Positions 9,989-39,850 of a DNA stretch of 64,000 nucleotides are shown piece by piece. This stretch comes from Herbaspirillum sp. WKF16. GTDB lineage: Bacteria > Pseudomonadota > Gammaproteobacteria > Burkholderiales > Burkholderiaceae_D. Under the pieces are notes generated by a model. The model searched no databases and was not told the origin of the DNA. It worked only from the letters and a program-made list of their open reading frames with translations. A program made the translations under genes and the position numbers. The stretch covers positions 186,001 through 250,000 of the forward strand of contig NZ_CP118632.1 of NCBI RefSeq assembly GCF_028993615.1. Reading direction: 5' to 3'. The first letter of the stretch is position 1. Every line of letters starts with the position of its first letter.

Positions 9989-10136
9989 GGGACGGAACAA
10001 GCCGGCGGCGCAGCGCATGCAGCCGGCAGTCGCATATGACGCAGACCGTGCCGCCGGCGTATGGCGGTTATCATCCTGTGGAGATGCATGCCGGCGGCGT
10101 CGCCGGCGTGGCAGCAGGAGTGCAGTGGAGAATGGA

Positions 10137-25597: not shown

Positions 25598-26578
25598 ATG
25601 GATGCCTTGAGCCGCCTGCTGTCCCTGCACCCGGTGCGCGCCGCGCTGGATATCCGCTGTCGCTTCGGCGAGCCCTGGAACCTGCGCAACGAGGCCCTGG
25701 CGCTGGGCGTGGCTCCCTATCACTTCATTCTCGAAGGCCGCGCCTGGGTCGAGGTGGCCGGCCAGCCGCCGCTGGCGCTGCAGGCCGGCGACCTGGTGCT
25801 GTTCGCGCGCGGCGCCGCCCACGGCATCTATACCGCGCCGCCCGAGCGCGCGGCGGCGGTGCGGGTGGTCGATGCGGCGGCGCCGGTGCAACTGCACGTC
25901 AACGACGGCGCCGCCGGTGGCGCGCAGCCGGTGTCCGATTTCCTGTGCGGGCAATTTCATTTCGAATCACCGCACTCCAATGCCCTGATGCAGGCCATGC
26001 CGGAGGTGGTGCTGGTGCGCGGCGACGAACTGCCAGAAGGACATGGGTTGCGCATGTTGGCCACGCTGCTGCGCGACGAATGCGGCGGGAGCGACGGCAG
26101 CGGCGCGCTGCGCGAGGGCGCGCAGGCGGTGGTGGCGGGCCTGGCCGCGGCGCTGTTCGGGTTGGCGATGCGCGCCTGGCTGGGGCAAGGCGGCCCCCAG
26201 CCGGGTTTGCTGGCGCTGCTGGCGCATCCGCGCCTGCAACGGGCGGTCCAGGCCATGCTGGATGCGCCCCAGGACGAGTGGCCGCTGGAGCGCCTGGCCG
26301 CGGCCTGCCATCTCTCGCGCGCCACCTTCGCGCGCCAGTTCCGCGAGGTCGGCGGGGCCACGCCGGGCGACATGCTGCAGCAGCTGCGCATGGCCCAGGC
26401 GGCCAGGTTGCTGGCCTACGGCAAGATGGGAACGGCCGAGATCGGCGAAGCGGTGGGCTACCAGTCGGAAGCGGCGTTCAACCGGGTGTTCAAGAAATAC
26501 AGCGGGATCGGGCCCGGCGCTTACCGGCGCCGGCTGCGCGGCGGTGCAGGGGATGCCGACCCCGCGCCGGGCGCCTGA
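25598..26578 (+). CDS. AraC-family transcriptional regulator with cupin sensor domain
   Basis: 326 residues. Residues about 10-190 form an AraC cupin_6-type domain (HFILEGRAWVEVAG, LALQAGDLVLFARGAAH); the last 100 residues carry the two AraC helix-turn-helix units (LERLAAACHLSRATFARQF; IGEAVGYQSEAAFNRVFKK). It faces away from the AhpD-like gene across about 150 bases and is its probable regulator, a very common pairing. The inducer cannot be read. Confidence 0.9.
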   Translation: MDALSRLLSLHPVRAALDIRCRFGEPWNLRNEALALGVAPYHFILEGRAWVEVAGQPPLALQAGDLVLFARGAAHGIYTAPPERAAAVRVVDAAAPVQLHVNDGAAGGAQPVSDFLCGQFHFESPHSNALMQAMPEVVLVRGDELPEGHGLRMLATLLRDECGGSDGSGALREGAQAVVAGLAAALFGLAMRAWLGQGGPQPGLLALLAHPRLQRAVQAMLDAPQDEWPLERLAAACHLSRATFARQFREVGGATPGDMLQQLRMAQAARLLAYGKMGTAEIGEAVGYQSEAAFNRVFKKYSGIGPGAYRRRLRGGAGDADPAPGA

Positions 26579-26593
26579 GGGCGGAGGCGGGGA

Positions 26594-27058
26594 TCAGCGG
26601 ATCGGCAGGCGGATGGTGTTCTTCACTTCTTCCATCACCGCGTAGGTGTGGGTCTCGCGCACGCCCTTCAACTGCAGCAGCGACTTGCCGAGGAATTCGC
26701 GATAGGCGTTCATGTCCTTGACGCGCGACTTGACCAGGTAGTCGAAGCCGCCCGCCACCATGTGGCACTCCATGATCTCGGGAATGCTCTGCACGCTCTT
26801 CTTGAACTCGGCGAAGACGTCCGGCGTGGTGCGGTCCAGCACCACCTCGATGAACACCAGCAACGACACGTCCAGCAGCTCGGGATTCAACTGCGCGGCA
26901 TAGCCCAGGATATAGCCGGCCTCCTGCAGCTTGCGCACCCGTTCCAGGCAAGCGGCGGGCGACAGGTTCACGCGCGCGGCTAGGTCGACGTTGCTGATGC
27001 GGCCATCGTTTTGCAGTTCCGCCAGAATTTTCTTGCTGATCTTGTCGAGCGTAGCCAT
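26594..27058 (-). CDS. Lrp/AsnC-family transcriptional regulator
   Basis: 154 residues. N-terminal winged helix-turn-helix (DKISKKILAELQNDGRISNVDLAARVNLSPAACLERVRKL, cited as the segment from residue 5 to 45) and a C-terminal RAM ligand-binding domain (ECHMVAGGFDYLVKSRVKD). It is divergent from livK. Two phased palindromes sit directly before its start codon, and the same 11-base core appears upstream of putA. Lrp-family PutR proteins activate putA in alphaproteobacteria. Together this suggests a proline or branched-chain amino acid sensor for the island to the right; the effector is inferred. Confidence 0.9.
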   Translation of the reverse strand: MATLDKISKKILAELQNDGRISNVDLAARVNLSPAACLERVRKLQEAGYILGYAAQLNPELLDVSLLVFIEVVLDRTTPDVFAEFKKSVQSIPEIMECHMVAGGFDYLVKSRVKDMNAYREFLGKSLLQLKGVRETHTYAVMEEVKNTIRLPIR

Positions 27059-27063
27059 GGTTT

Positions 27064-27107
27064 CTGAATTTTATTCAGTAAAATAATTTTAAAGAGAATT
27101 TAATTCT
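27064..27107. promoter_or_regulatory. Two phased palindromes in the lrp-livK divergent region
   Basis: CTGAAT-TTT-ATTCAG (27064-27078) contains the 11-mer GAATTTTATTC (27066-27076). AGAATT-T-AATTCT (27095-27107) contains GAATTTAATTC (27096-27106). The two 11-mers differ by one base and start exactly 30 bases apart, about three helical turns. The first lies six bases from the lrp start, so autorepression is likely. Confidence 0.7.
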
Positions 27108-27411
27108 GATTATAAAGGCAATAAACACGCCTAATATCAGGGAAGAGTAAATAGAATCCTCCCTCATAAAAAATACAACGTAATGCGGGCATGGCGCGCC
27201 AACGGCGGCGCGCTTGCGCGGATGACAGCAGCATTTCCGGAATTTCTTTTACGAGTTTTATATGTTCGTACCTGCAACGGCGCAGCCAGTACAGCATCGA
27301 CGGAACCGCGGCCTCGCGTCCCACTGGGACCGGGGTGGCGCATATCCTGCTTTTCCAGCGTTTTAACCAATCACCCGCAGTCTGACTTTCTAGAAGAGAG
27401 GAAACACCCAC
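27108..27411. other. lrp-livK intergenic region, livK side
   Basis: A 304-base remainder of the divergent gap. It is AT-rich near the Lrp sites, then GC-rich. It carries the livK leader and an AGAGAGGAAA ribosome site before 27412. No other gene is supported. Confidence 0.5.
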
Positions 27412-28548
27412 ATGTTCAAGCGCGTCTCCGGACTCAACATCATCGCCGCTTCGCTGGCGCTCATCCCCGCGTTCGCCATGGCGCAGGAAACCCAGGTGGT
27501 CAAGATCGGCTTCTCCAGCCCGCTGACCGGTCCGCAGGCATCGGCCGGCAAGGACAACCAGGGCGGCCTGACGATGGCCGTCGAGCGCCTGAATGCGCAG
27601 CCCATCACCGTCGGCGGCAAGAAGATCAAGTTCGAAGTGATCGCCGAAGACGACCAGGCCGACCCGAAGTCGGGCGTGGCCGCCGCGCAGAAGCTGGCCG
27701 ACCAGGGCATCAAGGCCATCGTCGGTCCCTACAACTCGGGCGTGACCATCCCCGCTTCGCGCGTGTTCAATGACGCCGGCATCGTGGTTGCCACCGTGGC
27801 CTCCAATCCCAAGATCACCCAGCAAGGTTTCGCCACCCTGTTCCGCGTCGCCGCCAGCGACAGCCAGCTGGGCGGCAAGATGGCCCTGTACGCCGCCAAG
27901 GAGCTCAAGCTCAAGCGCGTCTCGGTGATCGACGACCGCACCGCCTACGGCCAGGGCCTGGCCGAGGAGTTCAGCAAGGTCGCCAAGGCCAACGGCCTGG
28001 AAGTGGTCAGCAAGGACTTCACCAACGACAAGGCGACCGACTTCACCGCCATCCTGACCTCCATCAAGGGCAAGAAGCCCGACGCCGTGTTCATCGGCGG
28101 CTACGCTCCCCAAGGCGGCCCGATCAAGCGCCAGATGAAGCAGCTGGGCATCGACGTCGTGCTCATGGGCGGCGACGGCATCTGCTCGCCGGAAATGGGC
28201 CGCCTGGGCGGCGACGCCATCGGCGAGTCGGTCTACTGTACCCAAGGCGGCACCATGCTGGACAAGGCCAAGGAAGGCAAGATCTTCGCCGACGACTACC
28301 AGAAGAAGTTCGGCCGTCCCGCGGAAACCTACGCCGTGTCGTTCTACGACGGCATGATGCTGATCGCCCAGGCCATGAAGGACGCCAACTCGGTCGAGCC
28401 CAAGCAGTTCGGCCCGGCCCTGGCCAAGATCAGCTACAAGGGTGTGGCCGGCCAGTACGACTTCGACGCCAACCACGACCTGAAGCAATCCCCGGTGACC
28501 GTGTACCGCTTCAAGAACGGCCTGCCGGTTCCGCTGACCAGCTACTGA
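27412..28548 (+). CDS. livK: Branched-chain amino acid ABC transporter substrate-binding protein (LivK/LivJ type)
   Basis: Periplasmic binding protein of the Leu/Ile/Val family, 378 residues with a signal peptide ending at AMAQE. The mature start VVKIGFSSPLTGPQASAGKDNQGG (cited as a segment) and the VGPYNSGVTIPASRVF hinge region are typical. The permease and ATPase genes livHMGF lie 2.4 kb downstream on the same strand, separated by two hydroxyproline-catabolic genes. Ligands in this family include branched-chain amino acids and sometimes proline or related imino acids. The context makes hydroxyproline or proline a candidate ligand. Confidence 0.92.
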   Translation: MFKRVSGLNIIAASLALIPAFAMAQETQVVKIGFSSPLTGPQASAGKDNQGGLTMAVERLNAQPITVGGKKIKFEVIAEDDQADPKSGVAAAQKLADQGIKAIVGPYNSGVTIPASRVFNDAGIVVATVASNPKITQQGFATLFRVAASDSQLGGKMALYAAKELKLKRVSVIDDRTAYGQGLAEEFSKVAKANGLEVVSKDFTNDKATDFTAILTSIKGKKPDAVFIGGYAPQGGPIKRQMKQLGIDVVLMGGDGICSPEMGRLGGDAIGESVYCTQGGTMLDKAKEGKIFADDYQKKFGRPAETYAVSFYDGMMLIAQAMKDANSVEPKQFGPALAKISYKGVAGQYDFDANHDLKQSPVTVYRFKNGLPVPLTSY

Positions 28549-28775
28549 TCGGCCCCCGGCCTGTCATCGCCTGATCCATCGCCCCGTCCGGCCGCAGCCG
28601 GCGGGGCGGCAGGCGGCCGGCGCCGCCTGTCCGCACTCCCTCCCGTTGCAGTTTTTCCTGCCGGCTTCGTCCGGTGGCGGGAGAGCGTTTGCCCGCGGTC
28701 GCCCGGCGTCCCAAGGTGGTACCCTGTCGCCTCGGCCGCAGCGGCAAAAAATACTCGGAAGTTAGAAGGAATACT

Positions 28776-29786
28776 ATGCTCAGCTATACCCGCACCGTCC
28801 AGACCATCGACGCCCATACCGGCGGGGAGCCGCTGCGCATCGTGGTGTCCGGCCTGCCCAAGATCCCGGCCGGCCCGATCCTGCAGCAGCGCGCTTGGCT
28901 GAAAGAGCATCGCGACGACTTGCGCCAGTTCCTGATGAACGAACCGCGCGGCCACGCCGACATGTATGGCGCCTACCTGCTGCCGCCGGTCACCGCGGGC
29001 GCCGACTTCGGCGTCATCTTCATCCACAACGAAGGCTACAGCGACATGTGCGGCCACGGCATCATCGCCCTGGGCAAGGTGCTGGTCGAGATGGGCTACG
29101 TCGAACCGGTGGCGCCGGTCACGCGCATCTGCTTCGACGCCCCGGCCGGCTTCATCGAGGCCTTCGTCGAGTGGGACGGCAAGCGCGCCGGGCGCGTGAG
29201 CTTCAACAACGTGCCGGCCTTCATCTATCGGCGCGACGTCGAGGTCGACACGCCCAGCTTCGGCAAGATCACCGGCGACATCGTCTTCGGCGGCGCCTTT
29301 TACTATTACATCAACGCCCGGCAGGCCAAGCTCACCGTCAAGCCGGAGCTGGTGCGCCAGCTGATCCAGCTGGGCGCCGAAACCAAGGCCGCAGTGATCG
29401 CCAAGGTCGACATCCAGCATCCGCTGGAGCCGGGCCTCAATACCCTGTACGGCACCATCGTCGACAGCGAACCCAATTTCCCCGGCGCCGACCAGTCCAA
29501 CGTGTGCATCTTCGCCGACCGCGAAGTGGACCGTTCGCCCACCGGCACCGGCACCTCCGGCCGCGCCGCGCAGCTGTTCCTGCGCGGGCGGCTGGCGCTG
29601 GGCCAGAACTACGTCAACGGCAGCATCGTCGGCAGCAACTTCGGCGTGCGCGTGACCGCGCCCGTCAAGGTTGGCGAATTCGACGGCGCGCTCACCGAGG
29701 TCAGCGGCCACGCCCACATCATGAGCACCAACCAGTGGGTGCTGGAAGAGTCCGATCCCTTCCCCACCGGTTTCTTCCTGCGCTGA
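28776..29786 (+). CDS. Trans-3-hydroxy-L-proline dehydratase (proline racemase superfamily)
   Basis: 336 residues from the ATG at 28776 with a GAAGGA ribosome site. Proline racemases and 4-hydroxyproline epimerases use two Cys. Here the first is kept (C92 in DMCGHGI), but the second is Thr (T256 in DRSPTGTGTSGR). That Cys/Thr pair is the known signature of trans-3-hydroxy-L-proline dehydratase (EC 4.2.1.77), which forms Delta1-pyrroline-2-carboxylate. The next gene encodes a reductase fitting the second step. This function call rests on the residue change and gene context. Confidence 0.88.
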   Translation: MLSYTRTVQTIDAHTGGEPLRIVVSGLPKIPAGPILQQRAWLKEHRDDLRQFLMNEPRGHADMYGAYLLPPVTAGADFGVIFIHNEGYSDMCGHGIIALGKVLVEMGYVEPVAPVTRICFDAPAGFIEAFVEWDGKRAGRVSFNNVPAFIYRRDVEVDTPSFGKITGDIVFGGAFYYYINARQAKLTVKPELVRQLIQLGAETKAAVIAKVDIQHPLEPGLNTLYGTIVDSEPNFPGADQSNVCIFADREVDRSPTGTGTSGRAAQLFLRGRLALGQNYVNGSIVGSNFGVRVTAPVKVGEFDGALTEVSGHAHIMSTNQWVLEESDPFPTGFFLR

Positions 29787-29813
29787 GCCGGCGCCGGACA
29801 TCAAGGACACGCC

Positions 29814-30752
29814 ATGCACATCCTGGACGCACAGCAAACCGCCGCCGCGCTGCCCTACGCCAAACTGGTCGCCGCGCTTGAGACCGCCGCGCAGGAGTTC
29901 GTCTCCGGCCGCATCCGCGCGCCCGAGCGCCAGGTGGTGCCGATCGACCCGGCCAGCGTGCTGCTGAGCATGCCGGCGATCGCCGACGACCTCTCGGTGA
30001 CCAAGCTGATCACCGTGCACGCCGACAACGGCCGGCACGGCCTGCCCGCCATCCAGGGCGAGGTGGTGGCCTTCGAGACGCATACCGGCCGTCGCATCGC
30101 GCTCATGGACGGCCCCACCGTCACCGGCCGCCGCACCGCCGCCATGACCATGCTGGGCATCAAGACCTTGCTGCCGCGCGCGCCGCGCTCGGCGCTGCTG
30201 ATCGGCACCGGCGTGCAGGCCGCGGCGCATGCCGACGCCCTGGCCGAGTTCTTCGGCGTCACCCAGTTCTGGATCGCCGCGCGCGACCTGCCGCGCACCC
30301 AGGCCTTCTGCAGCGACCTGTGCGCGCGCCATCCGCACGCCGTCGCCAGCCCGCTGCCCACCGAACTGCTGGCGCGCGACCTGCCGCATACCGACGTGCT
30401 GATCGCGCTGACCACCTCGCGCAGCGCCGTCATCCCCGAGCAGGTCGCGCCCGACACGCTGGCCATCGGCGTGGGCGCCTTCAAGCCCGACATGGTCGAA
30501 TTCCCGGCCTCGCTGCTGCATGCGCGCGCCATCGTGGTCGACGATCTGGGCGGCGCGCAGCACGAGGCCGGCGACCTGATCCAGGCCAAGGTGGACTGGA
30601 ACGGCGTGAGCGCCATCGGCGACGTGCTCTCGGGCAAGACCGCGGCCGCCGCGCTGGTGCGCAACGGCGCGCTGCCGGTCTTCAAGACCGTGGGCCAGGC
30701 CTCCTGGGACCTGGCCGCGGCGCGCGTGATGCGAGCGTCGCTGGCCGCATGA
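29814..30752 (+). CDS. Ornithine cyclodeaminase/mu-crystallin family reductase, probable Delta1-pyrroline-2-carboxylate reductase
   Basis: 312 residues with the NAD(P)-binding motif GTGVQAAAHADALA and the family substrate residues near LSVTKLITVHADNGRHG and MDGPTVTGRRTAA. Members of this family reduce Delta1-pyrroline-2-carboxylate to L-proline. It starts 27 bases after the trans-3-hydroxyproline dehydratase gene, which produces exactly that substrate. Ornithine cyclodeaminase is the main alternative and is less likely given the neighbour. A terminator follows. Confidence 0.87.
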   Translation: MHILDAQQTAAALPYAKLVAALETAAQEFVSGRIRAPERQVVPIDPASVLLSMPAIADDLSVTKLITVHADNGRHGLPAIQGEVVAFETHTGRRIALMDGPTVTGRRTAAMTMLGIKTLLPRAPRSALLIGTGVQAAAHADALAEFFGVTQFWIAARDLPRTQAFCSDLCARHPHAVASPLPTELLARDLPHTDVLIALTTSRSAVIPEQVAPDTLAIGVGAFKPDMVEFPASLLHARAIVVDDLGGAQHEAGDLIQAKVDWNGVSAIGDVLSGKTAAAALVRNGALPVFKTVGQASWDLAAARVMRASLAA

Positions 30753-30763
30753 CCCCATTGACG

Positions 30764-30793
30764 GAGCGCGAACCTGGTTCGCGCTCTTTTCTT
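30764..30793 (+). terminator. Intrinsic terminator after the reductase gene
   Basis: GAGCGCGAA (30764-30772) pairs perfectly with TTCGCGCTC (30778-30786), followed by TTTTCTT. It separates livK-dehydratase-reductase from livHMGF. Confidence 0.88.
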
Positions 30794-30933
30794 ATCAGCA
30801 GCAAACCGGCAGCACACTTGGGCACAACAGGGAGAATGCAATGACCACCACACCGCAGCGTCGTCCACAAGGCGCAGGCAACCACATCGTCCGGCCTCCG
30901 GTCCGACCGTAAAGAGACAGAGGAGACAGACTC

Positions 30934-31863
30934 ATGGACATTTTCATCCAGCAGATCATCAACGGCCTGGTGCTGGGCAGCATGTACGCGCTGATCGCAT
31001 TGGGTTACACGATGGTGTACGGCGTGCTGAACCTGATCAACTTTGCGCACGGGGACATCCTGATGGTGGGGGCGATGGTGGGCCTCTCGCTGCTCAAGCT
31101 GGTGCAGAACGTGGCGCCGCAGTTGCCGGGGATCGTGCAATTGATCATCGCCATCGTGGGCGCCATTCCGGTGTGCATCGTGGTCAGCCTGGTCATCGAG
31201 CGGGTGGCGTATCGTCCGCTGCGCAACGCGCCGCGGCTGGCGCCCTTGATCACGGCCATCGGCGTGTCGATCCTGTTGCAGACCATCGCCATGATGATCT
31301 GGGGCCGCAGCCCCTTGCCGTTCCCGCAGGTGATGCCGTCGGATCCGGTGCATATCGCCGGGGCGCTGATTTCGCCCACGCAGATCATGCTGCTGGCGCT
31401 GGCGGTGCTGGCCATGGTGGGGTTGGTGCTGGTGGTGGAGAAGACCAAGATGGGGCGCGCCATGCGGGCCACGGCGGAGAACCCGCGCATTGCGGGCTTG
31501 ATGGGGGTGGATTCGAACAAGGTGATCGTGGTGACGTTCGCCATCGGCGCGGGCCTGGCGGCCATTGCCGGGGTGATGTGGGCGGCCAACTACTCGACGG
31601 CGCAGTTCGCCATGGGCTTCGTGCCGGGCTTGAAGGCGTTCTCGGCGGCGGTGCTGGGCGGCATCGGCAACATCTACGGCGCCATGCTGGGCGGCATCTT
31701 GCTGGGGCTGATCGAGAGCCTGGGCGCGGGTTACATCGGCGACCTGACGGGCGACTTCCTGGGCAGCAACTACCAGGACATCTTCGCCTTCATCGTGCTG
31801 ATCATCGTGCTCACGCTGCGTCCGTCCGGCATCATGGGTGAGCGAGTCGCAGACCGCGCCTGA
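30934..31863 (+). CDS. livH: Branched-chain amino acid ABC transporter permease LivH
   Basis: Inner-membrane permease of 309 residues with about eight hydrophobic segments. It begins MDIFIQQIINGLVLGSMYAL, the standard LivH opening, and has the coupling region ENPRIAGLMGVDSNKVI. It is the first gene of livHMGF. Between it and livM there is a 150-base gap holding a REP-like repeat (31877-31977). Confidence 0.96.
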   Translation: MDIFIQQIINGLVLGSMYALIALGYTMVYGVLNLINFAHGDILMVGAMVGLSLLKLVQNVAPQLPGIVQLIIAIVGAIPVCIVVSLVIERVAYRPLRNAPRLAPLITAIGVSILLQTIAMMIWGRSPLPFPQVMPSDPVHIAGALISPTQIMLLALAVLAMVGLVLVVEKTKMGRAMRATAENPRIAGLMGVDSNKVIVVTFAIGAGLAAIAGVMWAANYSTAQFAMGFVPGLKAFSAAVLGGIGNIYGAMLGGILLGLIESLGAGYIGDLTGDFLGSNYQDIFAFIVLIIVLTLRPSGIMGERVADRA

Positions 31864-31876
31864 TCAAGAACAAGCC

Positions 31877-31977
31877 GTCGTTCCTGCGCAAGCAGGAACC
31901 CAGTGACGTCAGTGGCGAAAGGCGAGCGCCGTCAAGACATTGAAACGACACTGGGTCCCTGCTTTCGCAGGGACGAC
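31877..31977. repeat. REP-like dispersed palindromic element, copy 2, inside the liv operon
   Basis: GTCGTTCCTGCGCAAGCAGG (31877-31896) and its continuation to CAGTG (31901-31905) oppose ACGACACTGGGTCCCTGC (from 31945) and GGGACGAC (31970-31977). The arms are inverse complements and each contains a small internal hairpin. It has the same architecture and core (CCAGTG / CACTGG with GTCGT ends) as 2801-2909. It sits in the livH-livM gap and may affect mRNA stability. Confidence 0.8.
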
Positions 31978-32012
31978 AGGTAGCTTACTTATTTATTGAA
32001 TCGGAAACCAAT

Positions 32013-33227
32013 ATGGCTCTCCTATCCTTCGACATGAAACGCAACCCGGCGCAAGCCAGGACCAGCCTGCTGGTGCTGCTGGCGCTGATGATCGTGTTCC
32101 CCTTCATCGCGCAGCAGTTCGGCAACTCCTGGGTGCGCATCATGGACATCGCCCTGCTGTACATCATGCTGGCGCTGGGCCTGAACGTGGTGGTGGGCTT
32201 TGCCGGCCTGCTGGACCTGGGCTACATCGCCTTCTACGCCATCGGCGCGTACACGGCGGGCCTGCTGGCCTCGCCGCAGTTTGCGGCGGTGATCGAATCC
32301 TTCGTCAACACCTACCCGGCGGTGGGCAACTTCCTGGTGTGGGTGTGCGGGCCGGAGATCGTGCAGAACGGCATCCACCTGTCGCTGTGGCTGATCGTGC
32401 CGGTGTCGGGCCTGTTCGCGGCGCTGTTCGGGGCGTTGCTGGGCGCGCCGACCCTGAAGCTGCGCGGCGACTACCTGGCCATCGTGACGCTGGGCTTCGG
32501 CGAGATCATCCGCATCTTCATGAACAACCTGAACGCGCCGGTGAACATCACCAACGGCCCGCAGGGGATCAACCTGATCGACCCGATCCGGGTGTTCGGG
32601 GTGTCGCTGGCCGGCGAGCCGGGTTCGGGCTCGATGGTCAAGATCTTCGGCATGAGCACGCCCTCGGTGAACGCCTACTACTTCCTGTTCCTGCTGTTGT
32701 GCATCGGCGTGATCTTCTTCTCGGTGCGGCTGCAGGACTCGCGCCTGGGCCGCGCCTGGGTGGCGATCCGCGAGGATGAGATCGCCGCCAAGGCGATGGG
32801 CATCAACACCCGCAACGTCAAGCTGCTGGCGTTCGCCATGGGCGCGTCCTTCGGCGGCGTCTCGGGCGCCATGTTCGGCGCCTTCCAGGGCTTCGTGTCG
32901 CCGGAATCGTTCTCGCTGACCGAGTCCATCGCGGTGCTGGCCATGGTGGTGCTGGGCGGCATCGGCCACATCCCCGGCGTGGTGCTGGGCGGGGTGATCC
33001 TGGCGGCGCTGCCGGAAGTGCTGCGCCACGTGGTGGAGCCGCTGCAGATGGCCATCTTCGGCAAGGTCTGGATCGACGCCGAAGTGCTGCGCCAGCTGCT
33101 CTACGGCCTGGCCATGGTGGTGATCATGCTGACGCGCCCGGCAGGCCTGTGGCCCTCGCCGCGGCATGAAGACCGTCCGGAAGCGGATCACGCGTCGGTG
33201 GGCAGCACCGGCGAAGTCAAGGCATAA
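32013..33227 (+). CDS. livM: Branched-chain amino acid ABC transporter permease LivM
   Basis: Inner-membrane permease of 404 residues with about nine or ten hydrophobic segments. It has the LivM landmarks YIMLALGLNVVVGFAGLLDLG and AIREDEIAAKAMGINTRNVK. It carries a soluble C-terminal tail after MLTRPAGLWPS. livG starts 12 bases downstream. Confidence 0.96.
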   Translation: MALLSFDMKRNPAQARTSLLVLLALMIVFPFIAQQFGNSWVRIMDIALLYIMLALGLNVVVGFAGLLDLGYIAFYAIGAYTAGLLASPQFAAVIESFVNTYPAVGNFLVWVCGPEIVQNGIHLSLWLIVPVSGLFAALFGALLGAPTLKLRGDYLAIVTLGFGEIIRIFMNNLNAPVNITNGPQGINLIDPIRVFGVSLAGEPGSGSMVKIFGMSTPSVNAYYFLFLLLCIGVIFFSVRLQDSRLGRAWVAIREDEIAAKAMGINTRNVKLLAFAMGASFGGVSGAMFGAFQGFVSPESFSLTESIAVLAMVVLGGIGHIPGVVLGGVILAALPEVLRHVVEPLQMAIFGKVWIDAEVLRQLLYGLAMVVIMLTRPAGLWPSPRHEDRPEADHASVGSTGEVKA

Positions 33228-33239
33228 GGAGCACATCAC

Positions 33240-34007
33240 ATGACACAGACACTGCTCAAGATCCGCGACGTGAGCAAGCGCTTCGGCGGCCTGCAGGCCT
33301 TGAACGGCGTGGGCATCACGATCGAACGCGGCCAGATCTACGGCCTGATCGGCCCCAACGGCGCCGGCAAGACCACCTTCTTCAACGTCATCACCGGGCT
33401 GTACCAGCCCGACACCGGCAGCTTCGAGCTGGACGGCAAGCCGTATAGCCCGAGCGCGCCGCACGAAGTGGCCAAGGCCGGCATTGCGCGCACCTTCCAG
33501 AACATCCGCCTGTTCGGCGAGATGACGGTGCTGGAGAACGTGATGGTGGGCTGCCACGTGCGCACCAAACAGAACGTCTTCGGGGCGGTGTTCCGCCACA
33601 AGGCGGCGCGCGAAGAGGAAGCGGCGATCCGCGCCAAGTCGCAGCAGCTGCTGGACTTCGTGGGCATCGGCCAGTTCGCCAAGCGCACCGCGCGCCACCT
33701 GTCGTACGGCGACCAGCGGCGCCTGGAGATCGCCCGGGCGCTGGCGACCGACCCGCAACTGCTGGCGCTGGACGAACCGGCGGCGGGCATGAACGCCACC
33801 GAGAAGCTGGGCCTGCGCGAGCTGCTGGTGAAGATCCAGGCCGAAGGCAAGACGATCCTATTGATCGAACACGATGTGAAACTGATGATGGGCCTGTGCA
33901 ACCGCATCACGGTGCTGGACTACGGCAAGCCGATTGCCGAGGGCGTGCCGGCGGATGTGCAGAAGAACCCGGCCGTGATCGAGGCCTACCTGGGCGCCGG
34001 CCATTGA
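33240..34007 (+). CDS. livG: Branched-chain amino acid ABC transporter ATPase LivG
   Basis: Cytosolic ATPase subunit, 255 residues. Walker A GPNGAGKTTF, signature LSYGDQRRLEIARALA, Walker B LLALDEPAAGM and switch His in LLIEHDVKLMM. The Tyr-containing signature (LSYGDQ) is the normal LivG form. Confidence 0.97.
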   Translation: MTQTLLKIRDVSKRFGGLQALNGVGITIERGQIYGLIGPNGAGKTTFFNVITGLYQPDTGSFELDGKPYSPSAPHEVAKAGIARTFQNIRLFGEMTVLENVMVGCHVRTKQNVFGAVFRHKAAREEEAAIRAKSQQLLDFVGIGQFAKRTARHLSYGDQRRLEIARALATDPQLLALDEPAAGMNATEKLGLRELLVKIQAEGKTILLIEHDVKLMMGLCNRITVLDYGKPIAEGVPADVQKNPAVIEAYLGAGH

Positions 34008-34055
34008 CGTTGCATGCCACAGATTAGTCAGAACATTATTCGAGATTGAAAAGCG

Positions 34056-34778
34056 ATGACGAATATTCTTAAAGTTGAAAACCTGTCGGTGGCCTACGGC
34101 GGCATCCAGGCCGTGAAGGGCATCAGCCTGGAAGTGAACGAAGGCGAACTGGTGACGCTGATCGGCGCCAACGGCGCGGGCAAGACCACGACCCTCAAAG
34201 CCATCACCGGCACGCTGCCCAGCAGCAAGGTGGACGGCCATATCGAATACCTGGGGCAGGGCCTGAAGGGCAAGAAGTCCTTCGAGCTGGTCAAGGACAA
34301 GCTGGCGATGGTGCCGGAAGGTCGCGGGGTCTTCACGCGCATGAGCATCCAGGAAAACCTGTTGATGGGCGCCTACACCAGCGATGACAAGGGGCAAATA
34401 CAAGCCGACATCGACAAGTGGTTCGAGGTTTTCCCGCGCTTGAAGGAACGCGCGGCGCAGATGGCGGGCACCCTGTCGGGCGGGGAGCAGCAGATGCTGG
34501 CCATGGCGCGCGCGCTGATGAGCCATCCGACGCTGCTGCTGCTGGACGAACCGTCGATGGGCCTGTCGCCGATCATGGTGGAGAAGATCTTCGAGGTGAT
34601 CCGCAATGTGTCGGCGCAGGGGATCACGATCCTCTTGGTGGAGCAGAACGCCAAGCTGGCGCTGGAGGCGGCGCACCGCGGCTATGTGATGGAGTCGGGG
34701 CTGATCACCATGAACGGCGAGGCCAGGCAGATGCTGGATGATCCGCGGGTGAAGGCGGCTTATCTCGGGGAAGGCTGA
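34056..34778 (+). CDS. livF: Branched-chain amino acid ABC transporter ATPase LivF
   Basis: Cytosolic ATPase subunit, 240 residues. Walker A GANGAGKTTT, signature LSGGEQQMLAMARAL, Walker B LLLLDEPSMGL and LLVEQNAKLAL. It is the last gene of livHMGF and is followed by a terminator. Confidence 0.97.
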   Translation: MTNILKVENLSVAYGGIQAVKGISLEVNEGELVTLIGANGAGKTTTLKAITGTLPSSKVDGHIEYLGQGLKGKKSFELVKDKLAMVPEGRGVFTRMSIQENLLMGAYTSDDKGQIQADIDKWFEVFPRLKERAAQMAGTLSGGEQQMLAMARALMSHPTLLLLDEPSMGLSPIMVEKIFEVIRNVSAQGITILLVEQNAKLALEAAHRGYVMESGLITMNGEARQMLDDPRVKAAYLGEG

Positions 34779-34807
34779 GCTTCTCCTGCGCATCGCAATA
34801 CCCGAAG

Positions 34808-34833
34808 GCCGCATGCTCGCATGCGGCTTTTTT
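34808..34833 (+). terminator. Intrinsic terminator after livF
   Basis: GCCGCATG and CATGCGGC pair perfectly around CTCG, followed by six T residues. Confidence 0.93.
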
Positions 34834-34934
34834 ATTGCCGCAGCGTCGTCAAGCGATGGCGAAGGTATCGCAGAACTCCCAGCCCGTGGCCGCTGTCCCT
34901 TGGATATCGCCCACTCGCCCGCAAGCCGCCCGCC

Positions 34935-35978
34935 ATGCCCCGGCAACCGCCCCTGCAAAGAGAACGCTGGATAGACGTCTACCGCGGCATCGGCATCGCG
35001 CTGGTGGTGTGGGGTCACGTCTATGGCGGCTACAGCTTCGAGCTCATCTTCCTGTTCCACATGCCGCTGTTCTTCTTCATCAGCGGTTACCTGTTTCGCC
35101 CGGTGGCTTCACCCGCGGCGTTTTGCCGGCGCAAGGCGGCGCAGCTGCTGATTCCCTATGCGATGTTCCTGCTGGCCATCGGCATTCCACTGGCGATCAG
35201 CCTCTACATGAAGAACCCGCGCGACACGGCCGCGTTGCTCGGCTTTGCCGGCAACCTGCTGCTGGGAGGCAGCCGCCTGTCGGCCTGGCTGGCGGCATTC
35301 TGGTTCGTGACGTCCTTCTACGCGGTGCTGGCGATCGAGGCGGCGCTGGTCGGCCGCTGTTCGCGCGCCACGCTGCTTTGGCTGCACGCGGCGATGCTGG
35401 CGCTGGCATATGCCAATGCGCATCTGGCGCCGGGCCTGCAGGTGCCGTTTGCCGTCAATGTGGCGCTGGCGGCCGCGCCGATCTTCCATGCCGGCTATCG
35501 GTTCGGCCGGATGCGTGAGCCCGGGCGTCTGTATCGCCCCGCCGCAACGGTGGCCGCGCTCGGGTTGGTTGCGGTGACGGTCAACCACTACGCCGGCTGG
35601 CGCCTGAGCCTGGGCTACGACATGAAGGTCACGCAATACGGCGTGCCGGTCCTGAGCTTCGCCGCGGCGCTGGCCTGCTGCGTGTGCATGATGCGCGCGG
35701 CGCGCCGGATCGACGCCAGCCGACCCGCCCTGGCGCGCTGGCTGGCGGAACTCGGCCGGGCCGCCTTCGTCATCATGTTCATGCACATGGTGTTTACCAT
35801 GGGGCTGGCGGCGCTGCTGGGCGAGCAGTACCGTCTGCTGCGCGTGGCGGCGGGCCTGGGCGGCAGCTGGCTGCTGTATCGCGCAAGCCTCAGGTGGACC
35901 TGGAGCAGGGCGCTGCTGCTGGGTTCGGCCCCTGATCTCGCGGCGCTGGGCGGGCATCGCCGGGCAACGCGCGGCTGA
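34935..35978 (+). CDS. Acyltransferase 3 family membrane protein (fucose 4-O-acetylase type)
   Basis: 347 residues from the ATG at 34935, with about ten hydrophobic segments. The opening RERWIDVYRGIGIALVVWGH and the LFHMPLFFFISGYLF segment are typical of acyltransferase 3 proteins that O-acetylate surface sugars; the His in WGHV is the likely catalytic residue. It stands between livF and putA with no cell-surface polysaccharide genes nearby. The substrate is unknown. Confidence 0.85.
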   Translation: MPRQPPLQRERWIDVYRGIGIALVVWGHVYGGYSFELIFLFHMPLFFFISGYLFRPVASPAAFCRRKAAQLLIPYAMFLLAIGIPLAISLYMKNPRDTAALLGFAGNLLLGGSRLSAWLAAFWFVTSFYAVLAIEAALVGRCSRATLLWLHAAMLALAYANAHLAPGLQVPFAVNVALAAAPIFHAGYRFGRMREPGRLYRPAATVAALGLVAVTVNHYAGWRLSLGYDMKVTQYGVPVLSFAAALACCVCMMRAARRIDASRPALARWLAELGRAAFVIMFMHMVFTMGLAALLGEQYRLLRVAAGLGGSWLLYRASLRWTWSRALLLGSAPDLAALGGHRRATRG

Positions 35979-36011
35979 GCTGGAAAACCGTCCCATCGGC
36001 AAAATGGAGTC

Positions 36012-36084
36012 GAATTTAATTCCTTGATATTTTTATTTACCAAATTAAATATTGGATATATGCCATAAATACAGAATTAATATT
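36012..36084. promoter_or_regulatory. Phased Lrp-like sites upstream of putA
   Basis: GAATTTAATTC at 36012-36022 is identical to the site at 27096-27106. Weaker relatives follow at about 30-base steps: AAATTAAATAT at 36042-36052 (7 of 11 bases) and GAATTAATATT at 36074-36084 (7 of 11). The whole 36000-36110 stretch is strikingly AT-rich in a GC-rich genome. CCAAAT...ATTGG (36040-36055) is also palindromic. Confidence 0.6.
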
Positions 36085-36157
36085 GGTTGATCCCACATAG
36101 AATCCGGGTGCGAAAAACCTTCCAATTACCGTTTCCTATTGAGATTCCAGGCCAGTC

Positions 36158-39100
36158 ATGACCACCGCCGCTCCCTCCGCACCCACTTCCCCCGCCGGTT
36201 TGCCGTTCGGCGATTTCCATGCTGAAGTCATGCACGCGCCCGCCGCGCTGCGCGCCGCCATCACCGCCGCCTATCGCCGCGACGAACCGGACGCCGTGCA
36301 ATGGCTGCTGGGACAGGTCGGCAACGCTCCCTCCTGGCAGGAGCAGACCCAGGCGCTGGCCGGCAAGCTGGTGCGGCAAGTGCGCGAGAAGCGCACCCGC
36401 TCCTCGGGCGTGGATGCGCTGATGCATGAATTCTCGCTGTCCTCGGAAGAAGGCGTGGCGCTGATGTGCCTGGCCGAAGCGTTGCTGCGCATTCCCGACC
36501 GCCAGACCGCGGATCGCCTGATCGCAGACAAGATCAGCCGCGGCGACTGGCGCAAGCACCTGGGCGAGTCGCCGTCGTTGTTCGTCAATGCCGCCACCTG
36601 GGGCCTGCTGATCACCGGCAAGCTGGTCTCGACCAGCAGCGAAAGCAGCCTGGGCTCGGCCATCACGCGCCTGATCGGGCGCGGCGGCGAGCCGCTGATC
36701 CGCAAGGGAGTGGACCTGGCCATGCGCATGCTGGGCAACCAGTTCGTGACCGGCCAGACCATCGCCGAAGCGCTCGACAACAGCCGCGAGAACGAGAAGC
36801 GCGGCTATCGCTATTCCTACGACATGCTGGGCGAGGCGGCGCTGACCATGCACGACGCCGACGCCTACTACCAATCGTATGAAGACGCGATCCACGCCAT
36901 CGGGCGCGCTTCCAACGGCCGTGGCATCAAGGACGGCCCGGGCATCTCGGTCAAGCTGTCGGCGCTGCACCCGCGCTATTCGCGCGCCCAGCAGTCGCGC
37001 GTGATGAGCGAGCTGCTGCCGCGCCTGAAGAAGCTGCTGCTGCTGGCCAAGCAATACGACATCGGCCTGAACATCGACGCCGAGGAAGCCGACCGCCTGG
37101 AGCTGTCGCTGGACATGATGGAAGTGCTGGCGGCCGATCCCGACCTGGCCGGCTTCGACGGCATCGGCTTCGTGGTGCAGGGTTACCAGAAGCGCTGCCC
37201 CTTCGTGATCGACTACCTGGTCGACCTGGCCCGCCGCAACAAGCGTCGCCTGATGATCCGCCTGGTCAAGGGCGCCTACTGGGACAGCGAGATCAAGCGC
37301 GCCCAGGTGGATGGCCTGGAGGGCTATCCGGTCTACACCCGCAAGGTGCATACCGACTTGTCCTACCTGACCTGCGCGCAGAAGCTGCTGGCCGCCACCG
37401 ACGTCATCTACCCGCAGTTCGCCACCCACAACGCGGCAACGCTGGCGGCGATCTGGCACTGGGCCAAGCTGCACAACGTGGACGACTACGAATTCCAGTG
37501 CCTGCACGGCATGGGCGAGACCCTGTACGACCAGGTGGTGGGCCAGGAGAATCTCGGCAAGGCTTGCCGCGTGTACGCACCGGTCGGCTCGCACCAGACG
37601 CTGCTGGCGTATCTGGTGCGCCGCCTGCTGGAGAACGGCGCCAACTCCTCGTTCGTGAACCAGATCGTCGACGCCGAGGTGCCGCTGGAGCGCCTGGTCG
37701 CCGACCCCATCGAGACCGTGCGCGCCCAGGGCGGCCTGCCGCATCCGGCCATCGCGCTGCCGCAGCGCCTGTACGGCCAGGAACGCAAGAATTCATCAGG
37801 CATCGACCTCTCCAACGAAGACCGCCTGCGCCAGCTGGACCAGCTGTTCGGCCGCATGGTGGAACGCCAGTGGCAAGCCGCGCCGCTGATCGCCGGCCCG
37901 GTCGTCGCGGATGCGGCGCAGGCCGTGCTGAACCCGGCCGACCGTCGCGAGACCGTGGGCCGGGTGATCGAGGCCGCGCTGCCCGACGTCGAGACCGCGC
38001 TGGCCGCCGCCGCCGACTTCGCGCCGCAATGGCAAGCCACGCCGGCCGACGAGCGCGCCCGCATGCTGGAGCGCGCGGCCGACCTCCTGGAAGACAACAT
38101 CGCCGAGCTGATGGCGCTGGCCGTGCGCGAAGCCGGCAAGTCGCTGCCCAACGCCATCGCCGAGGTGCGCGAGGCGGTCGACTTCCTGCGCTACTACGCC
38201 ATCGCCTCGCGCCATGACGGCAACGCGCTGGCCTATGGCCCCGTGGTGTGCATCAGTCCGTGGAACTTCCCGCTGGCGATCTTCGTGGGCGAAGTCAGCG
38301 CCGCGCTGGCCGCCGGCAATACGGTGCTGGCCAAGCCGGCCGAGCAGACCGCGCTGATCGCCCATCGCGCCGTGCAATTGCTGCACGAGGCCGGCGTGCC
38401 GCGCGCCGCGCTGCAACTGTTGCCGGGCCGCGGCGAGACCGTCGGCGCCGCGCTGACCTCGGACGAGCGCGTCAAGGGCGTGATCTTCACCGGCTCCACC
38501 GAGGTGGCGCAGCTGATCAACCGTACCCTCGCCAAGCGCAATCACGGAGAGAACGGCGAGCACGGCGAAGTGCCGCTGATCGCCGAGACCGGCGGCCAGA
38601 ACGCGCTGATCGTCGACTCCAGCGCCCTGGCCGAGCAGGTGGTGGTGGACGTGCTCTCGTCCGCCTTCGACAGCGCCGGCCAGCGCTGCTCGGCGCTGCG
38701 CGTGCTGTGCCTGCAGGAAGACATCGCCGAGCGCACCCTGGACATGCTCCGGGGCGCCATGGCCGAACTGCGCGTGGGCCGTCCGGATCGCCTGTCCACC
38801 GACATCGGCCCGGTGATCGACGCCGAGGCGCGCCAGAACCTGCTGGGCCACATCGAACGCATGCGCGCCGGCGCCAAGTCGGTGCACCAGCTGGCACTGG
38901 GGCCTGAGTGCGAGCACGGCACCTTCGTGCCGCCCACGGTGATCGAGATCAACGACCTCTCGCAGCTGCAGCGCGAGGTGTTCGGTCCGGTGCTGCACGT
39001 GCTGCGCTACCGCCGCGAACAGCTGCCGCAGCTGGTCGACGCGATCAACGCTACCGGCTACGGCCTGACGCTGGGCGTGCACTCGCGCATCGATGAGACC

Positions 39101-39850
39101 ATCGACTTCGTGGCGCAGCGCGCGCACGTGGGCAATATCTACGTCAACCGCAATATCGTCGGCGCCGTGGTGGGCGTGCAGCCCTTCGGCGGCGAGGGCA
39201 AGTCGGGCACCGGTCCCAAGGCCGGCGGCCCGCTCTATCTGAAGCGCCTGCAGCGCAATCCGCAACTGCTGGGCGAGCTTGCCCGCGCGCAGCCGGCCGC
39301 CGGCGCTCCGGCCAATGCCTTGCTGGAGAGCCTGCTGCAATGGGCGCAGACCCACGGCCATGAGCGCCTGGCCGCGGCCGGCCGCCGCTATCACGGCGAC
39401 AGCCTGCTGCAGCGCAGCCTGCTTCTGCCCGGTCCGACCGGCGAGCGCAACACCCTGGCTTTCGCTGCGCGCGGCCTGGTGCTGTGCGTGGCCGGCAGCG
39501 TCGGCGCGCTGTTCAACCAGTTGGCGGCGGCGTTCGCGACCGGCAACAGCGTGCTGGTGGATGCCGCCACCGCGGCCTTCATCCCGGCCGGCTTGCCGCC
39601 GCAGGTGCGCGCGGCGATCCGCCAGGCTGCGCAGCTGGAGCGCGAGCCCTTGCAGGCGGCGCTGGTGGACAGCCATCTGGCGCTGGAGTGGCGGGCGCGG
39701 CTGGCGGCGCGGGAAGGCGCGCTGGTGCCGATGGTGGTGTGCAGCGAGGACGTTGTCATCCCGCTTTGGCGACTGGTGGCGGAGCGCGCCCTGTGCGTCA
39801 ACACCACGGCGGCGGGGGGCAATGCCAGCCTGATGACGATCTCGGTGTAA
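36158..39850 (+). CDS. putA: Bifunctional proline dehydrogenase / L-glutamate gamma-semialdehyde dehydrogenase
   Basis: Oxidises proline to glutamate in two channelled steps, FAD then NAD dependent; 1230 residues. Order of domains: arm and alpha domain (about 15-150), proline dehydrogenase barrel (about 190-550; RLVKGAYWDSEIKRAQ), aldehyde dehydrogenase (about 610-1060; catalytic Cys844 in SAGQRCSALRV), and a C-terminal ALDH-superfamily-like domain. The N-terminus lacks the ribbon-helix-helix DNA-binding domain of E. coli-type trifunctional PutA, so it cannot repress itself by that route and needs another regulator. Lrp-like sites lie upstream. Confidence 0.97.
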   Translation: MTTAAPSAPTSPAGLPFGDFHAEVMHAPAALRAAITAAYRRDEPDAVQWLLGQVGNAPSWQEQTQALAGKLVRQVREKRTRSSGVDALMHEFSLSSEEGVALMCLAEALLRIPDRQTADRLIADKISRGDWRKHLGESPSLFVNAATWGLLITGKLVSTSSESSLGSAITRLIGRGGEPLIRKGVDLAMRMLGNQFVTGQTIAEALDNSRENEKRGYRYSYDMLGEAALTMHDADAYYQSYEDAIHAIGRASNGRGIKDGPGISVKLSALHPRYSRAQQSRVMSELLPRLKKLLLLAKQYDIGLNIDAEEADRLELSLDMMEVLAADPDLAGFDGIGFVVQGYQKRCPFVIDYLVDLARRNKRRLMIRLVKGAYWDSEIKRAQVDGLEGYPVYTRKVHTDLSYLTCAQKLLAATDVIYPQFATHNAATLAAIWHWAKLHNVDDYEFQCLHGMGETLYDQVVGQENLGKACRVYAPVGSHQTLLAYLVRRLLENGANSSFVNQIVDAEVPLERLVADPIETVRAQGGLPHPAIALPQRLYGQERKNSSGIDLSNEDRLRQLDQLFGRMVERQWQAAPLIAGPVVADAAQAVLNPADRRETVGRVIEAALPDVETALAAAADFAPQWQATPADERARMLERAADLLEDNIAELMALAVREAGKSLPNAIAEVREAVDFLRYYAIASRHDGNALAYGPVVCISPWNFPLAIFVGEVSAALAAGNTVLAKPAEQTALIAHRAVQLLHEAGVPRAALQLLPGRGETVGAALTSDERVKGVIFTGSTEVAQLINRTLAKRNHGENGEHGEVPLIAETGGQNALIVDSSALAEQVVVDVLSSAFDSAGQRCSALRVLCLQEDIAERTLDMLRGAMAELRVGRPDRLSTDIGPVIDAEARQNLLGHIERMRAGAKSVHQLALGPECEHGTFVPPTVIEINDLSQLQREVFGPVLHVLRYRREQLPQLVDAINATGYGLTLGVHSRIDETIDFVAQRAHVGNIYVNRNIVGAVVGVQPFGGEGKSGTGPKAGGPLYLKRLQRNPQLLGELARAQPAAGAPANALLESLLQWAQTHGHERLAAAGRRYHGDSLLQRSLLLPGPTGERNTLAFAARGLVLCVAGSVGALFNQLAAAFATGNSVLVDAATAAFIPAGLPPQVRAAIRQAAQLEREPLQAALVDSHLALEWRARLAAREGALVPMVVCSEDVVIPLWRLVAERALCVNTTAAGGNASLMTISV

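Follow-up and report, generated by a model that had tools for sequence, protein, structure and literature searches.

Why does the same 11-base palindrome, GAATTTAATTC, stand both beside the gene for an Lrp-family regulator and in front of putA? The question arises from a 64-kb window of the genome of Herbaspirillum sp. WKF16 (the whole stretch of DNA that was analyzed), in which lrp is divergent from a liv operon that begins with a livK-like gene, and putA follows further downstream. Comparison of sequences leads us to the answer that the palindromes are probably distal operators in a promoter cassette that occurs twice and is controlled in both places by the adjacent, PutR-like protein of the Lrp family. 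The original prediction had used the palindrome to link the regulator gene, the lrp/livK region and putA. We find this link well supported because the shared sequences are specific to these promoters, are conserved in genus and family, persist where the two promoters lie far apart, and accompany a divergent layout of lrp and putA in relatives.

A cassette shared by the livK and putA promoters

The two exact copies of GAATTTAATTC (27096-27106 and 36012-36022) and the variant GAATTTTATTC (27066-27076, 7 bases ahead of the lrp start) lie exactly where they had been reported. A search of the whole genome (4,986,464 bases) returned the exact 11-mer at 2 places, both in the window. The check proposed for the palindrome, a genome-wide search allowing one mismatch, gave 25 matches on the forward and reverse strands compared with 6 for a reversed-letter control; exact copies occur only here, though some of the one-mismatch copies elsewhere fall within predicted reading frames. 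The link was thus not refuted by the proposed condition of a common 11-mer scattered inside genes. The claim that the 11-mer is very unlikely by chance needs tempering. Based on a first-order Markov model of the window letters, 0.25 exact places are expected per genome, with P ~0.03 for 2 or more, and because of this value the 11-mer by itself is no more than moderately unlikely. When 2 mismatches are allowed, the 6 matches in the window are not unusual, as this number was equalled in 14 of 100 shuffles. The firm evidence is a larger cassette and its conservation rather than the 11-mer.

The palindrome forms the distal portion of this cassette, which consists of three AT-rich sites followed by a TAGAAT box resembling a -10 element, and which is the same on the livK side and at putA, some nine kilobases apart (Table 1). 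The sites are 15-bp AT-rich imperfect inverted repeats with centers 30-32 bp apart, and in both promoters the center of the distal site lies 81 bp ahead of the TAGAAT box. The 30-bp distance predicted between the two sites near lrp was confirmed; of the weaker copies predicted upstream of putA, at 30 and 62 bases beyond the first site, the second distance stands and the first is corrected to 31. Two elements go beyond that prediction, namely the proximal CAGAATTAAT-N16-TAGAATC, which is the best conserved element of all, and a third half-site on the livK side, TAATATCAG. The -10-like box is spanned by ATAGAATCC in both promoters (27151-27159 on the livK side, 36097-36105 at putA). The proximal composite TAATATYRG-N10-ATAGAATC has 2 exact matches in the genome, which are the livK-side and putA promoters, and the next best places carry 2 mismatches. 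Its expected number of exact matches by chance is ~2e-5 per genome, for a pattern that was drawn after seeing both copies.

The degenerate form GAATWWWATTC was found at 4 places in the genome, 3 of them in this window. The arginine-repressor box has TGAAT half-sites, and this resemblance is all that favors ArgR as the controller of both promoters, which we regard as highly improbable. The ARG boxes of E. coli, as given in the available text of PMC6640053, are 18 bp long and 3 bp apart, compared with centers 30-32 bp apart here. ArgR is also largely ruled out by a search for the Arg_repressor domain (PF01316), which has no match in this genome and a match in 9 of 14 control genomes.

The sole GAATWWWATTC outside the window (C1:3236136-3236146; L015 1501-1511) lies between a gene for a TonB-dependent receptor and one for an OmpR-type response regulator. 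The neighbors of the other near-copies of the 11-mer and of composite places at 2-3 mismatches, as read in this genome (9 proteins examined), comprise a PcaR-type regulator, the TonB receptor/OmpR-type regulator pair, LysR/SDR proteins, and an E1-type dehydrogenase where they could be named; other such places fall inside predicted reading frames. There may be further target promoters with looser sites elsewhere in the genome.

Table 1. Features of the lrp-liv-putA region in window coordinates
Feature	Position	Strand	Center	Remarks
lrp/putR-like gene, 154 aa, Lrp/AsnC family	26597-27058	-		PF13404 (HTH_AsnC-type) and PF01037 (AsnC_trans_reg) above cut-offs
Distal site 1, livK/lrp cassette, CTGAATTTTATTCAG	27064-27078		27071	5 bases from lrp start codon
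Site 2, livK/lrp cassette, GAGAATTTAATTCTG	27094-27108		27101	30 bp from site 1
TATAAT, predicted -10 of lrp	27109-27114	-		kept in most congener alignment rows
Proximal half-site, TAATATCAG	27132-27140	+		at -35 position of livK promoter; exact composite match, conserved
TAGAAT, predicted -10 of livK operon	27152-27157	+		letters and distances as at putA
livK-like substrate-binding protein gene	27412-28548	+		Peripla_BP_6
Proline racemase family gene	28776-29786	+		closest model trans-3-hydroxy-L-proline dehydratase, 538.8 bits (cut-off 540)
Delta1-pyrroline-2-carboxylate reductase family gene	29814-30752	+		NF005603 above cut-off
livH-like transporter gene	30934-31863	+		best model LivH, below curated cut-off
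livM-like transporter gene	32013-33227	+		best model LivM, below curated cut-off
livG-like transporter gene	33240-34007	+		best model LivG, below curated cut-off
livF-like transporter gene	34056-34778	+		best model LivF, below curated cut-off
Acyltransferase-3 family gene	34821-35978	+		PF01757; between liv operon and putA
Distal site 1, putA cassette, TCGAATTTAATTCCT	36010-36024		36017	81 bp before TAGAAT
Site 2, putA cassette, CAAATTAAATATTGG	36041-36055		36048	
Site 3, putA cassette, CAGAATTAATATTGG	36072-36086		36079	at -35 position; best conserved element
TAGAAT, predicted -10 of putA	36098-36103	+		fixed distance conserved
putA, 1230 aa, bifunctional type without N-terminal ribbon-helix-helix domain	36158-39850	+		

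Conservation of sites, spacing and gene order

Our genus set comprised 34 Herbaspirillum genomes, that of the window included. In 27 of them we found an lrp copy that is 94-100% identical and in 4 one of 85-88%; the remaining 3 (G005, G023, G024) have none that close. At 29 of the 30 congener loci livK and lrp are divergent; the remaining locus has no upstream DNA. With up to one mismatch, the composite is present in 29 of the 34 genomes at one or two places each (55 matches; 0 control matches), and 54 of these matches lie within ~125 bp of an lrp or putA match. The 55th is located on contig G009:C32, in a genome with only 27 bases ahead of lrp on the lrp contig. No composite was found at this threshold in G018, G023, G030, G031, and G032; the putA loci of G018, G030, G031, and G032, which were absent from the congener putA alignment and read separately, contain the putA core with the N16 spacing kept and the letters diverged. 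In G006, a single contig of 4.97 Mb, lrp-livK lies at 4.74 Mb and livHMGF-putA at 1.99 Mb, and both cassettes are kept.

On the livK/lrp side, site 2 aligns almost gap-free among congeners (the alignment of lrp upstream regions left out L050 and L051, for which no start was found, and L048, with 27 bases upstream). At putA, the best distal match lies at 81 bp in 21 of 28 Herbaspirillum promoters with the module. These are 28 of 30 loci, L071 (the other putA copy of G019) and L081 (G023) having been left out as both are without the module. The second putA copy of G019 (G019:C3:160696-161859) carries no cassette.

For the wider family we used named loci that are the best 80 of a longer list. In L118-L127 livK is the divergent neighbor of lrp; L128 is without upstream DNA. 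Among liv-type Herbaspirillum loci, the center of site 1 lies 81 bp before TAGAAT in 10 of 10. At 66 of the 69 loci L129-L197, putA is divergent from and adjacent to lrp. These 66 include Massilia, Collimonas, Janthinobacterium, Noviherbaspirillum, Glaciimonas, Duganella, and others, as well as two Herbaspirillum-titled records (L130, L176). The exceptions are L146 and L161, which are Herbaspirillum-titled metagenome-assembled genomes with liv genes, and L189, in which no putA was found. Two marks of a PutR-type regulator are a gene that lies next to putA in divergent orientation and conserved operators in the putA promoter. The first mark is present at these 66 family loci and not in the window, where 8 genes separate lrp from putA; the second is found here, as far as conservation identifies operators. 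The consensus of the 66 lrp-putA intergenic regions reads CCAGAATTAATCC...TACAATCG.

The distal site and the -10-like box are 81 bp apart at 74 of 75 family loci and 82 bp apart at the other (best match over 40 offsets). This count left out L128, for want of upstream DNA, and L139, L146, L153, and L161, which have no exact core. The flanking distances vary at the same 75 loci, with 14 different values to the lrp start and 48 to the next start. Of 245 family genomes, 162 contain the putA core CAGAATTAAT-N16-TANAATC with up to one mismatch, whose control had 0 matches, and 166 contain an lrp orthologue (E<=1e-60). Counted per genome and not per locus, 158 have both, 8 only lrp, 4 only the core, and 75 neither. 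The four core-only genomes are G061 and G196, with one-mismatch cores, G233, where the core is near a contig edge, and G255, a 48%-complete assembly. Outside the family, none of 290 genomes contains the exact core, and a one-mismatch core was found in 17 compared with 7 for the control.

Could these sequences be plain AT-rich promoter DNA (UP elements, -35 and -10 boxes) that was kept by descent with no specific regulator? The sites are AT-rich in a window of 66% G+C, the proximal element overlaps the -35 position, and the species are related, so that shared spacing partly reflects descent. This explanation nevertheless strikes us as very unlikely, since a plain promoter has no need for an element 81 bp before the -10 box that stays fixed at 74 of 75 loci while the flanks drift, and since the module occupies just one or two places per genome in 29 of 34 genomes. 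Nor do consensus scans identify a plain promoter at the conserved boxes. In the region 26950-27420 they gave a single terminator-like pattern, inside lrp, and nothing of sigma-70 type, and the region 35900-36200 contains one sigma-70 pattern (36024-36053), away from the conserved TAGAAT, and a terminator-like pattern (35996-36013) that overlaps the start of the putA distal site; the counts of such patterns are near those of shuffles. With transcription starting as predicted, the livK message would carry an untranslated leader of ~250 bases (27164-27411). Rfam returned no RNA element at E<=0.1 for 26500-36200, this leader included.

The regulator and its predicted mode of action

The window Lrp contains an AsnC-type helix-turn-helix and an AsnC ligand-binding domain, which places it in the Lrp/AsnC family. 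It is identical to E. coli Lrp (2gqq) at 91 of 150 aligned residues and scores below the cut-off of the E. coli Lrp equivalog NF008370 (219.2 bits vs 233). The putA gene is preceded by an in-frame TGA at 36140, 18 bases ahead of the ATG, and the alignment of PutA to PRK11809 starts at profile position 74 of 1318, with a total score that passes the PRK11809 cut-off. Because of this stop and this late start of the profile match, we conclude that PutA has no ribbon-helix-helix (RHH) domain and therefore cannot repress itself in the RHH manner. The substrate of the liv transporter we infer from the neighboring genes. Between livH and livM (31876-31980), an imperfect inverted repeat can be made out by eye, GTTCCTGCGCAAGCAGGAACCCAGTG vs CACTGGGTCCCTGCTTTCGCAGGGAC, and a repeat search reported none there.

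If the adjacent Lrp-family protein controls the cassette, its dimers would occupy three sites ~31 bp apart on one helix face in each copy; the spacing of 30-32 bp fits three helical turns. The last site would stand where a -35 element is normally found, which would make transcription of both putA and the liv/hydroxyproline operon dependent on this protein. By analogy with Caulobacter PutR, its action is probably activation, and the signal probably proline or a related amino acid. The near-invariant 81 bp may point to a rigid Lrp-DNA complex that would place RNA polymerase without a -35 box. Toward lrp, the same sites would overlap the start region of the gene. As sites 1 and 2 lie between the lrp TATAAT and the lrp start codon, we predict that lrp represses itself.

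Several observations weigh against this reading. It rests on sequence comparison, and binding, expression, and transcription starts are predictions. The consensus promoter scan does not select the TAGAAT boxes, and we detected no significant ~10-bp periodicity of family conservation (0.447 of shuffles reach the observed value). None of the 6 sites is an exact CAG-N9-CTG, the closest being CAG-N9-CTC at 27101 on the minus strand. Seven of the 28 Herbaspirillum putA promoters have their best distal match away from 81 bp, and 8 of the 166 family genomes with lrp have no core when one mismatch is allowed (G034, G035, G048, G052, G076, G085, G096, G109). G005 and G024, both fragmented assemblies, have the putA cassette and no close lrp match, and G002 has the cassette at putA, yet none within one mismatch at lrp. 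Finally, the genome contains nine Lrp-family matches, of which the window Lrp and the paralogue 3243517 resemble E. coli Lrp to the same degree (60% each), and a one-mismatch copy of the 11-mer stands 5 bases before another Lrp-family gene (C1:4126476-4126486; L019 1501-1511).

The last two observations are also those that favor a different regulator, either an Lrp paralogue or an unrelated factor, with the window lrp being only a target or a neighbor of the cassette. We consider this unlikely. Core and lrp orthologue are jointly present or jointly absent in 233 of 245 family genomes, a figure that partly reflects their being neighbors, and at the 66 of 69 loci described above lrp is the direct divergent neighbor of putA, as putR is in Caulobacter according to the accessible part of PMC6168545. 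The Lrp-family gene at C1:4126476-4126486 is divergent from a gene for an E1-type dehydrogenase (TIGR03186/aceE models); with the near-copy only 5 bases before its start, this paralogue may use a similar motif for self-control.

Origin of the second cassette and relation to known systems

The family mostly has a single cassette, placed between divergent lrp and putA, whereas in Herbaspirillum the liv operon stands in between and a cassette is found at both promoters. The simplest origin that the sequences suggest for the second cassette is a duplication of the ancestral control region. Consistent with a common origin, the promoter profiles agree in register over -88 to -28 even with the anchor letters excluded (z 5.1, 4.9, and 6.0 against 37 shifted registers). 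The profiles represent 64 family putA loci, 28 Herbaspirillum putA loci, and 25 Herbaspirillum liv loci, the last being those of 28 scanned that matched (L047, L048, and L049 did not); identical segments were counted once.

Two arrangements bear on this origin. In G032 (L208) lrp is followed by livK and then by putA, and both gaps contain a cassette-like stretch; this order is possibly intermediate between the family and Herbaspirillum layouts. Massilia niastensis (L149, ~9590-10001) carries the lrp-putA control region twice, and the copy beside lrp is truncated after CAGAATTAA. These arrangements suggest, and do not prove, that the control region was duplicated when livK entered. In the fullest form of this scenario, the whole promoter, operators and core, was duplicated as the uptake/hydroxyproline operon entered the lrp-putA gap, which gave the local regulator a second target of identical nucleoprotein geometry. 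We would put this at not quite an even chance; if true, G032 and L149 would show the route of the duplication. Control by the local Lrp-family protein would predict a two-promoter proline/hydroxyproline regulon in this family, give a rigid geometry for how such a protein might activate, and offer a natural case of regulon growth by the copying of a whole control region.

Among the matches listed from the open-licence literature, we found no study of this system in Oxalobacteraceae. Joint control of hydroxyproline genes, in some groups together with putA, is described for HypR in the available text of PMC5343134; HypR is a GntR protein and thus belongs to a different regulator family, and "lrp" appears 0 times in the main text of that paper. 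Trifunctional PutA proteins have control of putA in common with our system, and according to the portion of PMC5293562 at hand their RHH domain serves self-regulation, whereas this domain is absent from the window PutA. The available text of PMC6640053 describes an operator consensus CAG-N9-CTG for E. coli Lrp and wrapping of DNA around its octamer, as the original prediction had envisaged for the present sites. The cassette resembles such operators in being an array of 15-bp AT-rich imperfect inverted repeats next to the gene of a 60% identical protein; it differs from them in having no CAG-N9-CTG match and in occurring as a composite at two promoters only in this genome. Closest in design is the alphaproteobacterial PutR-putA system. 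As far as the accessible part of PMC6168545 goes, the Lrp-like PutR of Caulobacter activates putA and needs proline to do so, its gene is divergent from putA, and Lrp-like putA regulators also exist in Agrobacterium, Brucella, and Rhodobacter. In most family relatives examined, an Lrp-like gene is likewise divergent from putA. The system described here differs in belonging to Betaproteobacteria, in having operators known from conservation alone, and in that an uptake/hydroxyproline operon with its own copy of the cassette intervenes between the two genes in Herbaspirillum.

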